A stretch of DNA of 64,000 nucleotides, taken from contig NZ_JAUSTE010000010.1 in NCBI RefSeq assembly GCF_030812675.1, positions 1-64,000 on the forward strand, in the 5' to 3' direction. This document shows positions 45,768-52,732 of this stretch, piece after piece. The DNA is from Sinomonas atrocyanea (GTDB taxonomy: Bacteria; Actinomycetota; Actinomycetes; Actinomycetales; Micrococcaceae). Every line of letters starts with the position of its first letter. Position 1 is the stretch's first letter. The notes under the pieces were generated by a model, which made no database searches, was not told where the DNA came from, and was given only the letters and a program-made list of their open reading frames with translations. The translations under genes were made by a program, and so were the position numbers.

Positions 45768-46652
45768 TCAGCGCGTGTAGGCCGTGGCGGTCCACAGGTG
45801 CACGAGTGCATAGGCCCGGAACGGCCGCCACGCCTCGGCGCGGCGGGCCGCCTCGGCCGCGCTGATGCCGCCGAGGGCGCGGCGCAGCACGAGGTCGCCG
45901 GGGGCAAAGGCATCCGGTTTGCCGGTGCGGACCTCGAGGTAGTCTGCGGTCCAGGGGCCCACGCCGGGGACCGCGAGGAGCTCCTCACGCGTGAGCCGCA
46001 GGCCGGTGTCCCCGGGGGAGTGGCTCCGGTCCGCGAAGGCCTGTGCGAGGGCGCGGACCGTGCGGGCGCGGGAGGACGTCAGGCCGACGGCGGACTGGAG
46101 GTCCTCGGCGCGGACCCCGGCGAGGGCAGCGGCGGTGGGGAACTGGGCCAGCAGGTGGGGGCCGGGTTCGCCGTAGGCGGCGACGAGCCGGCCCGCGAAC
46201 GTGCGGCCCGCCGCGAGCGAGACCTGCTGGCCCAGCACGGTCGTCACGGCCGTCTGGAAGGCGTCCGTCGTTCCGGTGACCCTCAGCGCGGGCCGGGCGT
46301 CCACGAGGGGCCGGAGGAGCGGGTCTGCCCGCAGGGCCGCGCGGACGGGCCCCAGATCGGTCGCGAGGTCCAGCCACGCCCGGACCGCCGGGACCACGGG
46401 CGTGACGACCTCGTGGGCCGCGCGGACGGCGAGGTCCACGCCGTCGGCATCGAGCCGCACCGAGACGGCGACGGGTCCGCCCGCGGTGTGGACGAGCCGC
46501 TCGTGGGTGCCCGCGGCGAGGTCGGTGCGCTCGGCGCCAGGCACGGTGTGGGCGGCGAGGCCCGCGAGCATCGCGGCGGGAGCGAGGCCGCCCGGGGCCT
46601 CCAGCCGGAGGGGAGCAGCGGCGGCCTCTGGATGGCGGGGCTCCGACGCCAT
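45768..46652 (-). CDS. alkA: AlkA-type DNA-3-methyladenine glycosylase II
   Basis: A 294-residue HhH-GPD glycosylase. The start ATG 46652 follows CGGCGGA; a GTG six codons upstream is an alternative. The N-terminal 100 residues are the AlkA-type beta domain, followed by helices with TDAFQTAVTTVLGQQVSLAAGRTFAGRLVA near residues 155-185 and the HhH motif LLAVPGVGPWTADYLEVRTG. A conserved acidic residue follows in FAPGDLVLRRALGG and supplies the catalytic Asp. It excises alkylated purines. It is the last gene of the operon with a 50-base gap after tag. Confidence 0.88.
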   Translation of the reverse strand: MASEPRHPEAAAAPLRLEAPGGLAPAAMLAGLAAHTVPGAERTDLAAGTHERLVHTAGGPVAVSVRLDADGVDLAVRAAHEVVTPVVPAVRAWLDLATDLGPVRAALRADPLLRPLVDARPALRVTGTTDAFQTAVTTVLGQQVSLAAGRTFAGRLVAAYGEPGPHLLAQFPTAAALAGVRAEDLQSAVGLTSSRARTVRALAQAFADRSHSPGDTGLRLTREELLAVPGVGPWTADYLEVRTGKPDAFAPGDLVLRRALGGISAAEAARRAEAWRPFRAYALVHLWTATAYTR

Positions 46653-46702
46653 TCCGCCGTGCTCAGGCACTGTCGACCCCGCGCTGTGCGCGACCACCGG
46701 GG

Positions 46703-47299
46703 CTACGCCCACACGCCCGAGCTGCCGCGGCGATGGCTGCCCACGAGGTGGGTGTCGATGATGCCGATGGCCTCCATGAGCGCGAACATCGTGGTCGGGC
46801 CCACGAACGCGAAGCCCTTCTTGCGCAGCGCCTTCGAGAGCGCGATGGATTCCGGCGACGTGGACGGGATCTCGGCGAAGGAGGCGGGCGCTGGAGTCTC
46901 GGCGGGCTGGAACGACCACACGAACTCCGCCAGGCCGCCCTCCTCGCGCAGCGCGAGCGTGGCCGCGGCGTTGGTGACGGCGGCCTTGATCTTGGCCCGG
47001 TTGCGGACGATTCCCCCGTCGAGCATGAGCCGCTCGACGTCCTCCGGCGTGAACCGCGCGACCGCCTCGGGGTCGAAGCCGGCAAAGGCCGCGCGGAACG
47101 CGGGCCGCTTACGCAGGATCGTGGCCCACGAGAGGCCCGCCTGGAAGCCCTCGAGGCAGATCCGCTCGTGGACGCCCTGCTCGTCGCGGACGGGCATGCC
47201 CCACTCGGTGTCGTAGTACTCGCGCATGAGCGCATCCGCGCTGGCCCATACAGGCCGGGACAGGCCGTCCTCGCCGGTGATCAGTGCTGCCTCGGCCAC
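46703..47299 (-). CDS. tag: DNA-3-methyladenine glycosylase I, zinc ligands replaced
   Basis: A 198-residue Tag-type enzyme with YYDTEWGMPVRDEQGVHERICLEGFQAGLSW, ILRKRPAFRAAFAGFD, GIVRNRAKI and GFAFVGPTTMFALMEAIGIIDTHL. The E. coli zinc-snap residues are mostly lost: the N-terminal Cys is missing (SRPVWAS), the YHDTEWG His is Tyr, and the C-terminal Cys is absent (HLVGSHRR). Catalytic Glu and aromatic pocket residues remain. It removes 3-methyladenine. GTG start, with AAGGAG upstream. It is 12 bases after alkB. Confidence 0.92.
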   Translation of the reverse strand: MAEAALITGEDGLSRPVWASADALMREYYDTEWGMPVRDEQGVHERICLEGFQAGLSWATILRKRPAFRAAFAGFDPEAVARFTPEDVERLMLDGGIVRNRAKIKAAVTNAAATLALREEGGLAEFVWSFQPAETPAPASFAEIPSTSPESIALSKALRKKGFAFVGPTTMFALMEAIGIIDTHLVGSHRRGSSGVWA

Positions 47300-47311
47300 G
47301 GGGGTGCTCCT

Positions 47312-47983
47312 TCAGTCCAGTCCGGTCACGCGGAGGGTGATGTTGATGCGCCCGGCCTCGAGGCCGCACCCGGAGGGCGCGGTGCCCGGGTAGGTCTTCA
47401 TGACGCCGTGGAAGGCGAGCCGCGCCGGACCGCCGAACACGAAGAGGTCGCCGGAGGCCAGCACGAGGTCCTCGTACGGCCGGCCCCGCGACTCGGAGTT
47501 GCCGAAGCGGAAGAGGCAGCTGTCGCCGACGGACAAGGACACGACCGGCTCGCGGGAGACCTCATCCTTGTCCTGGTGCATGCCCATCCGGGCGGCGTCG
47601 TCGTAGTAGTTCACCAGGGCCGTGTCGGGGGCGTACTGGCGGGCCGCCTCGCCGGGGCCATAGGCCTCGGCGACGGCGAGCCGGCCCACGCGCGCGAGCC
47701 AGTCGGGCAGCGGCAGCACGCGGGCCCCGTTGACGTCGGTGGCCTCGCGGGAATAACGGTAGGGCTGCCAGTGCCAGCCCAGGCACACGGTCTTCACGGA
47801 CATCTCGTGTCCCCGCACGGCCGCGGCCCGAGGTGGTACCGGTCCCGCGGACCACTGGCGGAACTGCCCGGTGATCCATGCCTGCTGCTCGAGGGTGAGC
47901 CACCCGGGCACATGCACGGCGCCCGGTGCGAGCTCGTGGCGGGGCCGCTCGAGCAGGTCGTCGCCGAAGAGCGTGCCGCTCAC
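47312..47983 (-). CDS. alkB: AlkB-type Fe(II)/2-oxoglutarate DNA dioxygenase
   Basis: A 223-residue enzyme. The Fe ligands are His136 and Asp138 (MGMHQDKDE) and His192 (AFHGVMK). The 2-oxoglutarate-binding Arg is Arg212 (RINITLRVTG, with Arg218 following). It oxidatively demethylates 1-methyladenine and 3-methylcytosine. GTG start 47983 overlaps the ogt TGA (GTGA), so translation is coupled. Without an Ada protein in the window, this is an ogt-alkB pairing under an ECF sigma factor. Confidence 0.94.
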   Translation of the reverse strand: MSGTLFGDDLLERPRHELAPGAVHVPGWLTLEQQAWITGQFRQWSAGPVPPRAAAVRGHEMSVKTVCLGWHWQPYRYSREATDVNGARVLPLPDWLARVGRLAVAEAYGPGEAARQYAPDTALVNYYDDAARMGMHQDKDEVSREPVVSLSVGDSCLFRFGNSESRGRPYEDLVLASGDLFVFGGPARLAFHGVMKTYPGTAPSGCGLEAGRINITLRVTGLD

Positions 47984-48648
47984 GCGGCCGCCTCCAGGGA
48001 GAGCAGTGCCGTCTTCGCCTCCAGGCCGCCGATGTAGCCGCCGAGGCTCCCGTCGGAGCGCAGCACCCGGTGGCACGGGATCACGAGCGGTAGGGGATTG
48101 GTCGCGCACGCAGTGCCGACGGCGCGGACGGCCTTCGGGTTCCCCACGGCCCGGGCGACCTCGGTGTAGCTCTCAGTGGCGCCGAAGGGGATCTCGCCGA
48201 GGTGGGCGAGGACGGTGCGGCGGAACCCGGCGGAGAGGCTCAGGTCCAGGGGCAGGTCGAAGCGCGTGCGCCGTCCGGCGAAGTACTCCTCGATCTCCCG
48301 GGCGGCGGAGCCCAGGCGGCCGGGGGCCTCGAGGATGCGCGGGCTGAGCCGGTCGGCGAGTGTCTGCAGGACGGCGTCGAGGCCCTCGCGTTCGAAGGCC
48401 ACCCGGACCAGACCGCGTTCGGTCGCGGCGACGAGGAGCTGGCCCAGCGGCGAGTCGACCACCCGGTAGGCAACGTCGAGCAGTCCCTCCCGGCCGGCCT
48501 CGGCCGCCAGTGTTCCGCGCAGCCGCTCGAGGGTGCCGGGCTCGATGGCCGTCAGGTGGGGTGCGACGGCAAGGTCCACGGTGCCGAGGGCGGCCAGTTC
48601 GGCAGGATCTGCGCCTGTCGAGGTCGGGTCGGTGTGGGGGCGGTTCAT
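47980..48648 (-). CDS. ogt: Methylated-DNA-protein cysteine methyltransferase with N-terminal extension
   Basis: A 222-residue protein. Residues 58-222 are the Ogt/MGMT domain, with the acceptor Cys192 in PCHRVLRSDGSLGGYIGG and the helix GFRRTVLAHLGEIPFGATESYTEVARAVGNP. Residues 1-57 (TGADPAELAALGTVDLAVAPHLTAIEPGTLERLRG) are extra and lack zinc-binding Cys, so this is not an Ada N-domain. ATG 48648 overlaps the sigma-factor stop (ATGA); AAGGAGA lies upstream. It transfers methyl from O6-methylguanine to itself, irreversibly. The extension is a candidate contact for the co-encoded sigma factor. Confidence 0.93.
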   Translation of the reverse strand: MNRPHTDPTSTGADPAELAALGTVDLAVAPHLTAIEPGTLERLRGTLAAEAGREGLLDVAYRVVDSPLGQLLVAATERGLVRVAFEREGLDAVLQTLADRLSPRILEAPGRLGSAAREIEEYFAGRRTRFDLPLDLSLSAGFRRTVLAHLGEIPFGATESYTEVARAVGNPKAVRAVGTACATNPLPLVIPCHRVLRSDGSLGGYIGGLEAKTALLSLEAAA

Positions 48649-49151
48649 GAGGGGTCTCCTTCCGGCAGCAGGTCTGCCGAGACGAGGGCGCGCAGCTTCC
48701 TGAGCCCGTCCGCGGCGGAGCGGCGGGCAGCGGCGGGAGTGCCGCCGACGATCGCGGCGATCTCCCCGAAGGGCAGGTCGCCGAGGTAACGGTAGGCGAT
48801 GACGCGCCGCTGCTTGTCGGGCAGGCGTGCAACCTGGCCCCACACGCCGCTGTCCGGCGGGGCGGGGTTCCCGAGGGGCGAGCGTCCCTCCGGCACCGAC
48901 TCGATCGGGACGGCGCGGCGCCCCGCTGCCCGGACGGCGTCGAGGGAGCGGCGGTGGGCGATGGTCACGAGCCAGGCCTCGACGTTGGCATCGGGCGGGA
49001 GGTCGGTGTAGGCGCGGAGGGCCGACAGGAAGGTCTCCTGCCAGACGTCCTCGGCATCCAGCGGGCCGACGACCGCGCGGCACACCCGCAGCACCGAGGC
49101 TCCGTGGAGCTCGACGAGCTTTTCGAAGGGCTGTTTCGTGTCCATCACCAT
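48645..49151 (-). CDS. ECF-type sigma factor heading the DNA alkylation operon
   Basis: A 168-residue sigma factor. Region 2 (residues about 8-72): FEKLVELHGASVLRVCRAVVGPLDAEDVWQETFLSALRAY and WLVTIAHRRSLDAVRA. Region 4 (about 105-160): LPDKQRRVIAYRYLGDLPFGEIAAIVGGTPAAARRSAADGLRKLRAL. The start is ATG 49151 or 49145 (MDTKQ). Its stop overlaps the ogt start. No separate anti-sigma gene is adjacent; the ogt extension or another protein could play that role. It probably directs transcription of its own operon under alkylation stress. Confidence 0.9.
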   Translation of the reverse strand: MVMDTKQPFEKLVELHGASVLRVCRAVVGPLDAEDVWQETFLSALRAYTDLPPDANVEAWLVTIAHRRSLDAVRAAGRRAVPIESVPEGRSPLGNPAPPDSGVWGQVARLPDKQRRVIAYRYLGDLPFGEIAAIVGGTPAAARRSAADGLRKLRALVSADLLPEGDPS

Positions 49152-49220
49152 GAAGACGCCGGGGAGGCCGGAAATGTGAGGTCGCCGGCCGAGGTCATGG
49201 CCATCATTCCACCCATGGCC

Positions 49221-51338: not shown

Positions 51339-52139
51339 CAGCAGGCCGGAGAGCAGCGACGGCGACGTGGGCGCAGGCGGCAGGTGCGGCATGGTGGGCA
51401 CCGCGCTGGGAGCCAGCGAGGGCGGGCTGAGCGGCAGCTGCGGGAGCGGCACCCCGGGGACGCTCGCCGCCGGAGCGGGAACGGACGGTGTGACGGGCGA
51501 CGCCGGCCGGGTCGACTTGGGGGAGACGCCTGCCGGGCCCTGGGTGCCCTCGGGCGCCGACGTGCTCGTCGGTCCCGGTACGGCGGGCGCCACCCGGGCC
51601 GGCAGCGGCGCCTGGCCGGTCCCATCCGGGGACGGTGCCTGGCTGGGCGCGGTGTCCACAGCACTGGTGCCGCTGCCCGGCCAGAGGTGGAAGCCGTCCT
51701 GGGCCACGGCGGCCGCGCCGGCGGAGGCCGCACCGGCGGTGATCGCGATGATGAGCGCTGTCGTGGCCGGGCGGCCGCGCCGCCGGCGGGACCGCGAGCG
51801 GGTGCTGCGGGCCGCCTCGAGGTCCACCACCGTGGCCGGCGCGGGCTCGTGCTCGGTCTCCGGGAGCTGCTCGGGGGCGGCAGGCTGGAGGGCGGTGACG
51901 GCGGCCGGGAGCTGTTCGGGGGCGGCGGGCTGGAGGGCGGTGACGGCGGCCGGGGCGGCCGCGGCGGCGCCGGCGGCGAGGAGGCTGCTGAGCCGGCGGT
52001 TGGGGAGCACAGGTTCGGACTCTGCGAGCCCGCGGAGCTCGGCGAGGACCGGACGGAGGGACTCGGCGTCCTCGGAGTCCAGTCCCTCGAGGAGCTCGTC
52101 GACGACGTCGAGGTCGTCCGGGTCAAAGGCGGAAGTCAT
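51324..52139 (-). CDS. Single-pass membrane protein, probable anti-sigma partner
   Basis: A 271-residue protein. Residues 1-60 are an acidic helical segment (DPDDLDVVDELLEGLDSEDAESLRPVLAELRGLAESEP, then LPNRRLSSLLAAG). A 15-residue unit (PAAVTALQPAAPEQL) is duplicated near 63-92. After an Arg-rich stretch (RSRSRRRRGRP) a single membrane helix follows at about 124-147. The outer part is a long Pro/Ser/Ala-rich region. Its ATG overlaps the sigma stop, so the two are coupled. N-terminal cytosolic part plus one membrane helix fits an anti-sigma factor, but no zinc HxxxCxxC motif is seen. Confidence 0.65.
   Translation of the reverse strand: MTSAFDPDDLDVVDELLEGLDSEDAESLRPVLAELRGLAESEPVLPNRRLSSLLAAGAAAAAPAAVTALQPAAPEQLPAAVTALQPAAPEQLPETEHEPAPATVVDLEAARSTRSRSRRRRGRPATTALIIAITAGAASAGAAAVAQDGFHLWPGSGTSAVDTAPSQAPSPDGTGQAPLPARVAPAVPGPTSTSAPEGTQGPAGVSPKSTRPASPVTPSVPAPAASVPGVPLPQLPLSPPSLAPSAVPTMPHLPPAPTSPSLLSGLLPKLP
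51862..51951. repeat. 45-bp tandem duplication inside the anti-sigma-like gene
   Basis: The 45-base unit occurs at 51862-51906 and 51907-51951 with a few substitutions. It encodes the PAAVTALQPAAPEQL repeat, so the reading frame is kept. It looks like a recent in-frame expansion in a disordered linker. Confidence 0.8.
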
Positions 52140-52732
52140 GGCCTGCTCAGTTCTGTGGTCGGCACGTGCGTGCGGAGTTCGTTCAGGGCCCGGCGCTGGA
52201 GCTGCTTGACGGCGCCCGTGGTCCGGCCCATGACCGCGGCGGTCTCCTCGATCGAGAGGTCGGCGACGATGCGCAGGAGGAGGACTTCGCGGTAGTCCTC
52301 GGAGAGCCTGCTGAGGAGGGCGAGCGCGCCGCTGTCGGCGACGACGGCATCCTCGGGGGTGGTGGCCGCGCGGCGGGGATCTGTCTCTGCCTCGTGGGGC
52401 ACCAGGTAGGGGGTCCTCGCCCTGCGCCGGTGATGGTCGACGGCGCGCCCGTGGGCGATGGTGAAGGCCAGGGCCTTCGTTCCCGCGAGGCCGCCGATGA
52501 AGCCGGGCCCCTCATCGGTGCCGCCCTGGGTCAGCCGTGTGTAGAGGGCCAGGAAGACGTCGTGCGTCACGGCGTCGGGGTCGTCAATGCCCCGCGCGCG
52601 CAGGTAGCCCCTGACGGGGCCGGAGTACTCGCGGTAGGCGGCGGTGAAGAGTGCTTCCGGGCTGTCCTGATCGTCCGCGGCGATCACGACTCCGGGGTCC
52701 TCGCTCGTGTGCAACCACTCCATCCTGTCCAT
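52136..52732 (-). CDS. ECF-type sigma factor
   Basis: A 198-residue sigma factor. Region 2 spans about 25-105 (ALFTAAYREYSGPVRGYLRARGIDDPDAVTHDVFLALYTRL, KALAFTIAHGRAVDHHRRRA) and region 4 about 130-185 (LSEDYREVLLLRIVADLSIEETAAVMGRTTGAVKQLQRRALNEL). ATG 52732 (MDRM) is chosen; ATG 52723 (MEWLH) is an alternative, and neither has a clear ribosome binding site. It overlaps the anti-sigma-like gene downstream. It likely responds to envelope stress, and the secreted protein gene upstream may be a target. Confidence 0.85.
   Translation of the reverse strand: MDRMEWLHTSEDPGVVIAADDQDSPEALFTAAYREYSGPVRGYLRARGIDDPDAVTHDVFLALYTRLTQGGTDEGPGFIGGLAGTKALAFTIAHGRAVDHHRRRARTPYLVPHEAETDPRRAATTPEDAVVADSGALALLSRLSEDYREVLLLRIVADLSIEETAAVMGRTTGAVKQLQRRALNELRTHVPTTELSRP

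Follow-up and report, generated by a model that had tools for sequence, protein, structure and literature searches.

The adaptive response to DNA methylation, known through Ada, is the textbook case of a repair protein that doubles as its own sensor; the E. coli gene set comprises ada-alkB, alkA and aidB. Classical extracytoplasmic function (ECF) sigma/anti-sigma pairs, such as SigE/RseA and SigR/RsrA, are encoded with the sigma gene first, the partner gene next and the promoter before the sigma gene. Here, we analysed an operon on a 64,000-nucleotide stretch of Sinomonas atrocyanea DNA (the window), in which the gene for an ECF sigma factor is followed by ogt, encoding an O6-methylguanine-DNA methyltransferase, and by alkB, tag and alkA. 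The protein is not of a new kind, and a sigma-Ogt neighbourhood is already in print: for group ECF122 of the Casas-Pastor classification, whose model protein is from Cellulomonas sp. Root930, a review lists 6-O-methylguanine DNA methyltransferases as conserved neighbours and gives the mechanism as unknown (PMC8999054).

The window sigma factor resembles ECF122, a group of ECF sigma factors without a known anti-sigma factor, in having a methyltransferase as neighbour, as judged from the described neighbourhood rather than from the group model. Like the E. coli Ada response, the operon brings an O6-methylguanine transferase, AlkB and AlkA under one dedicated regulator. Unlike it, the regulator is a separate sigma factor, and a search of the 4.12 Mb window genome for the Ada N-domain (PF02805, Ada_Zn_binding) gave 0 matches, in agreement with the initial annotation; the same search was positive in 6/14 control genomes. 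As in the classical ECF pairs, the sigma gene precedes that of its partner and has a putative promoter ahead of it; unlike in those pairs, the partner here would be a soluble suicide enzyme of DNA repair and has no known anti-sigma domain. Collectively, the locus is real and widespread and amounts to more than a five-gene operon; it probably represents an alternative to Ada that is based on a sigma factor, with Ogt as the likely sensor.

The sigma-ogt operon and its spread

The minus strand from 49151 to 45768 codes for sigma, ogt, alkB, tag and alkA, in this order and as one unit, with the following features.

49152..49181, minus strand: putative cognate promoter CCTCACATTTCCGGCCTCCCCGGCGTCTTC, with -35 CCTCAC and -10 CGTCTTC
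48645..49151, minus strand: ECF sigma factor with region 2 and region 4 (Pfam Sigma70_r2, 1.6e-13; Sigma70_r4, 9.2e-08), a conserved family
47980..48648, minus strand: Ogt, O6-methylguanine-DNA methyltransferase (Pfam DNA_binding_1 and Methyltransf_1N), with an extra N-terminal helix at residues 37-53 and catalytic Cys192
47312..47983, minus strand: AlkB-type 2OG-Fe(II) dioxygenase (PF13532, 2OG-FeII_Oxy_2, 1e-46)
46703..47299, minus strand: Tag, 3-methyladenine DNA glycosylase I (PF03352, Adenine_glyco, 3e-65; TIGR00624, 2.3e-64)
45768..46652, minus strand: AlkA, 3-methyladenine DNA glycosylase II (PF06029, AlkA_N, 2.2e-15; PF00730, HhH-GPD, 2.2e-11)

The initial annotation had described five co-oriented genes with overlapping or short junctions, and our coordinates agree with it. 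An ATGA overlap joins sigma to ogt and a GTGA overlap joins ogt to alkB, followed by gaps of 12 and 50 bases, the second of which assumes that alkA starts at the ATG at 46652; the alkA open frame extends further upstream. Pfam backs each of the five proposed products, and Tag scored 216.4 bits against TIGR00624, under the curated cut-off of 232.5. The sigma factor, at 168 aa, matches PF04542 and PF04545/PF08281 and nothing else in Pfam at E <= 0.05, which places it in the ECF family, and its AlphaFold2 (AF2) model consists of helices only (mean pLDDT 90.1, pTM 0.48). In a comparison by eye, the start codon at 49151 was absent from some Sinomonas loci (e.g. L034 and L038) and the GTG/ATG codons at 49148/49145 were kept; the true sigma start is probably 49148 or 49145. 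Residue 24 of sigma, in region 2, is a Cys in 236/253 sigma sequences.

Some sigma match at E <= 0.001 was present in 193/198 relatives and a strong match in 90/198, the cut for a sigma-positive genome being set in the gap between 80.8 bits and the next match at 53.3 bits. Loci were fetched for 80 of these 90 genomes and were combined with those of 5 distant sigma relatives and with 197 from wider samples, giving 282 loci, some of which repeat one genome. The neighbour described for ECF122 was found in nearly all of them: ogt directly follows sigma in 278/280 evaluable actinobacterial loci, with 2 loci lacking it at this position and 2 more cut by a contig end. With ogt taken to start at the first ATG, GTG or TTG from 25 nt before the sigma stop, the two genes overlap in 272/278 loci, and by exactly 4 bases in 230. 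Once duplicates had been dropped, along with pairs containing stops or X, the set comprised 253 unique sigma-ogt pairs, of which 78 have a second, divergent ogt (ogt0) just upstream of sigma (e.g. L044, L057 and L087).

The genes alkB, tag and alkA are optional, as 47/80 named loci show none of the three within flanks of ~4 kb. All five genes stand together in 14/15 Sinomonas genomes, the remaining locus (L039) being without an alkA match. The compact five-gene order is mainly a Sinomonas trait among the loci examined, and the sigma-ogt pair reaches well beyond Micrococcaceae and is spread over Actinomycetota. A sigma match at E <= 1e-25 was found in 52/394 sampled genomes of the class and in 125/396 of the order. 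Among the named loci (the best 80 of 567), those of highest identity are from Sinomonas, and the hosts include Mycobacterium, Mycolicibacterium, Rhodococcus, Streptomyces, Amycolatopsis, Cellulomonas (strains Leaf395, Leaf334 and Root485), Clavibacter and Acidimicrobiia. No gene as constant as sigma and ogt was seen in the 10 of 80 neighbourhoods that were viewed, in which no scan for anti-sigma domains was made. Viral contigs gave 17 pattern matches, none of them related to sigma.

The putative promoter and the inverse pattern with Ada

The consensus upstream of sigma is CCTCAC[AG]-N16-CGTYTNC. In the 900 nt that precede sigma or the ogt0-sigma-ogt unit, this strict motif was found in 219/252 pairs compared to 0/252 in the reversed-sequence control, and the core motif CTCAC-N17-CG in 250/252 pairs compared to 13/252. 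Operons of the ogt0-sigma-ogt type often have the motif before ogt0 rather than before sigma, and 21 of the 78 pairs with ogt0 have strict sites both near sigma and further upstream. In the window, the conserved GTG/ATG start codons lie 3 and 6 nt downstream of the promoter. Distances were counted in the 179 pairs with a strict site no more than 130 bases from sigma, where a gap of 5 nt between the end of the -10 element and the first in-frame start was counted 98 times, one of 3 nt 44 times, one of 6 nt 13 times and one of 0 nt 10 times. Since the start codons lie within a few nt of the -10 element, the sigma transcript is probably leaderless.

The strict pattern occurs in 84/198 genomes, namely 66/90 sigma-positive compared to 18/108 sigma-negative genomes (Fisher p 3e-16, from a table ignoring shared ancestry); G168, one of the 18, has 8 copies of one repeated sequence. 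The sigma gene is not followed by ogt in two loci, those of G134 and G790. In G134, an ogt of the helix-bearing type described below lies elsewhere and has the promoter, as does the sigma gene itself. In G790, which also has a helix-type ogt elsewhere, an ogt0-ogt-alkB stretch has the promoter, and the sigma locus (L359) is without a pattern match. These two genomes are the best test of sigma control over ogt. The conserved promoter before the operon and before unlinked ogt genes points to autoregulation, and on comparative evidence from several sides we consider it very probable that sigma controls its operon and, in relatives, ogt.

The looser pattern CTCACR-N16-CGWYTNC has two zero-mismatch sites in the window genome, at the operon and in a gap between a LysR-type and a transporter gene, and requiring CCTCAC leaves the operon site only. 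The second site (G000:C8:129966-129994; L119 5967-5995) is promoter-like with exact spacing and recurs at this position in five Sinomonas genomes, that of the window among them; it was rejected as a regulon member because GGCTCAC takes the place of CCTCAC and its neighbours include no repair gene. Separately, a strict site in G007 (G007:C31:197902; L187 site 7903) lies ~9 kb from the sigma operon and 356 bases before an Lhr-type helicase frame (L187 2447-7546, minus strand; DEAD, WH_Lhr and DEAD_assoc), a possible extra regulon member.

The presence of Ada is anticorrelated with that of sigma. PF02805 was detected in 62/198 relatives, comprising 10/90 sigma-positive compared to 52/108 sigma-negative genomes (Fisher p 1.4e-8, ancestry ignored), which leaves 80/90 sigma-positive relatives without Ada. 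The Ada-independent, sigma-driven response proposed in the initial annotation stands in part: Ada-independence holds as far as PF02805 shows, sigma is the co-encoded regulator, and a conserved ECF-like promoter precedes both the operon and the unlinked ogt of sigma-bearing relatives, but the proposal lacked a sensor or brake. An autoregulated ECF factor needs one or the other, and the evidence points to Ogt.

The N-terminal helix of Ogt and its proposed role

The sigma-linked Ogt is the single Ogt of the window genome (profile search, E <= 1e-10). Foldseek matched its AF2 model (mean pLDDT 92.9) to C-Ada (1sfe, 2.6e-15) and to M. tuberculosis OGT, as expected of the transferase fold. The PCHR active site is kept in 252/253 linked Ogts, and Cys192 and Asn184 (the Asn hinge) are invariant in 43/43 Ogts. 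With its catalytic residues intact, the linked Ogt is expected to remain able to repair DNA and to become methylated.

Sigma-linked Ogts have additional N-terminal residues with a conserved helix, modelled at residues 37-53 in the window protein, whereas the match of M. tuberculosis OGT to the profile begins only at position 43 of 206. A helix-type Ogt was defined by E <= 1e-79 and a profile start <= 25, a cut set after the scores had been seen, and up to 15 candidates were scored per genome. Such an Ogt was found in 83/198 genomes, namely 81/90 sigma-positive and 2/108 sigma-negative genomes, in a 2x2 table that, like others of the same type, ignores shared ancestry. Both of the sigma-negative genomes show apparent sigma relics. 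G043 and G151 seem to have lost sigma recently, as short relics of its first residues lie beside the helix-bearing ogt (in L401 from ~2348 onward on the plus strand, and in L402 on the minus strand).

The helix is missing in 13/15 same-clade Ogts without an adjacent sigma. These 15 were read out of 17 unlinked Ogts and come from 14 genomes, the one from G093 being a second copy beside the linked pair. The profile match starts at position >= 37 in 11 of the 13; it starts earlier in L408 and L415, but inspection of the start codon and sequence by eye showed no space for the helix there. The two unlinked Ogts that keep it (L401 and L402) are both beside apparent sigma-start relics, again as judged by eye. 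None of the 15 unlinked Ogts has a strict promoter within 700 bases; the core form, with a different -10, occurs in 3. In a FastTree of Ogt cores (81 linked, 15 unlinked and 8 upstream ogt0), the unlinked Ogts fall in several groups, with 7 Fitch changes over the three labels, outgroup included, and with low support at some nodes. The simplest reading of these comparisons is that the Ogt helix is kept for sigma. Cys181 was also considered as a sensor-specific trait. It lies 11 positions N-terminal to Cys192 and corresponds by spacing to Met134 of human MGMT, which is described as losing a contact on alkylation (PMC10814553). It was rejected, as it is present in 96% of linked Ogts but also in the 15 same-clade Ogts without an adjacent sigma.

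We propose that the operon, sigma-ogt-alkB-tag-alkA, is transcribed from CCTCAC-N17-CGTYTNC by the dedicated ECF sigma factor that it encodes, and that the overlap of the genes would cause Ogt to be made in step with sigma. Unmethylated Ogt would hold sigma via its extra N-terminal helix, acting as the sensor and most likely as the brake. On taking a methyl group from O6-methylguanine onto Cys192, Ogt would change shape or be lost and sigma would be released. The released sigma would then raise expression of the operon, and fresh, unmethylated Ogt would recapture it after the damage had been cleared. Methylation of the transferase would thus be the signal, as in the E. coli Ada response. We regard as rather probable the explanation as a whole, in which the response to alkylation is Ada-independent, driven by sigma and autoregulated, and Ogt serves as sensor and probably as the anti-sigma partner. 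That Ogt is a regulatory partner of sigma we hold with somewhat greater confidence, and on the sign of its action, anti-sigma factor rather than co-activator, we are evenly divided. More tentatively, the suicide repair enzyme may itself be the anti-sigma factor, such that each repair event methylates one Ogt, frees one sigma and so counts lesions into transcription.

Several observations weigh against this explanation. Ten genomes have both sigma and an Ada-type domain, and in nine sigma-positive genomes, those with more distant sigmas, the Ogts fail to match the helical portion of the profile. Beyond the operon promoters, sigma-positive genomes hold 25 further strict sites, of which 15 were read, chosen for their likeness to operon sites; only 4/15 precede an ogt (in G134, G175, G081 and G057 contig 2, where that of G175, G081 and G057 is a second ogt). 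Ten (in G182, G131, G178, G132, G180, G083, G057 contig 11, G007 contig 28, G124 and G148) have no ogt downstream; in G132 the contig stops shortly beyond the site. The remaining one is the helicase site of G007 contig 31. The N-terminal extension of Ogt amounts to a short helix, and Pfam recognised no anti-sigma domain in Ogt. Finally, coevolution analysis of the 253 unique sigma-Ogt pairs (effective number 165; 10 full and 10 local shuffles) gave no clear interface: the top score of 1.643 was beaten by 2/10 full shuffles and the local maximum was 1.603. The tenth-best score, 1.200, was above all 20 shuffles (local <= 1.057, full <= 0.954).

The partner-role data, with ogt after sigma and the helix tied to sigma, would serve equally well if Ogt were a co-activator with Ada-like logic, in which methylated Ogt binds sigma or promoter-bound RNA polymerase via the helix and turns transcription on, and unmethylated Ogt is neutral. 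We consider this unlikely, as autoregulation would run away without a brake, and overlapping, co-translated genes for a sigma factor and its partner under autoregulation are more usual for sigma/anti-sigma pairs. There are precedents in two papers: RNA polymerase requires methylated Ada to bind the E. coli ada promoter (PMC4437013), and human MGMT, once alkylated, is described as adopting another shape and as binding the oestrogen receptor (PMC10814553). Ogt could also be a passenger, with sigma controlled otherwise, by transcription, proteolysis or an unlinked anti-sigma factor, and ogt merely its most constant target. The promoter in trans of ogt in G134 and G790, like that of any target, and the weak sigma-Ogt coevolution are consistent with this, and the review gives several other controls for ECF factors without an anti-sigma factor (PMC8999054). 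The passenger role leaves unexplained why the Ogt helix stays with sigma and is missing in most same-clade Ogts without it, and we consider it quite unlikely. A constitutive repair operon, with sigma active whenever it is expressed and no damage sensing, would fit the lack of any signal visible in the sequence, but is highly improbable given the dedicated sigma, the promoter that precedes the sigma gene and the anticorrelation with Ada, which suggest a regulated response.

Neighbouring features and relation to known systems

Near the operon, the window also holds the following features.

49718-49221: tadA, the upstream neighbour, assigned from coordinates and Pfam
45665-45576: tRNA-Ser gene, the downstream neighbour
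52139-52708, minus strand: another sigma-factor-like gene, with Pfam region 4 only in the stretch tested, followed by a 271-aa frame with no Pfam match

Human MGMT resembles the proposed sensor in being an O6-methylguanine transferase with protein contacts that are altered on alkylation, and differs in that its partner is the oestrogen receptor, no sigma factor is involved and the genes are not in an operon (PMC10814553). To what the review gives for ECF122 (PMC8999054), our data add the putative promoter, the ogt targets in trans, the inverse pattern with Ada and the helix tied to sigma. No experimental study of the sigma-Ogt pair was found in the open-licence literature searched. Casas-Pastor 2021 reportedly may already predict an ECF122 promoter.

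If the proposed explanation is true, many Actinomycetota would have an Ada-free adaptive response, in which the spent repair protein is the signal and the fresh protein the off switch. This second, sigma-based solution would link repair to transcription by a separate route. An ECF group without a known mechanism would also gain a testable one, together with a simple one-protein damage sensor.

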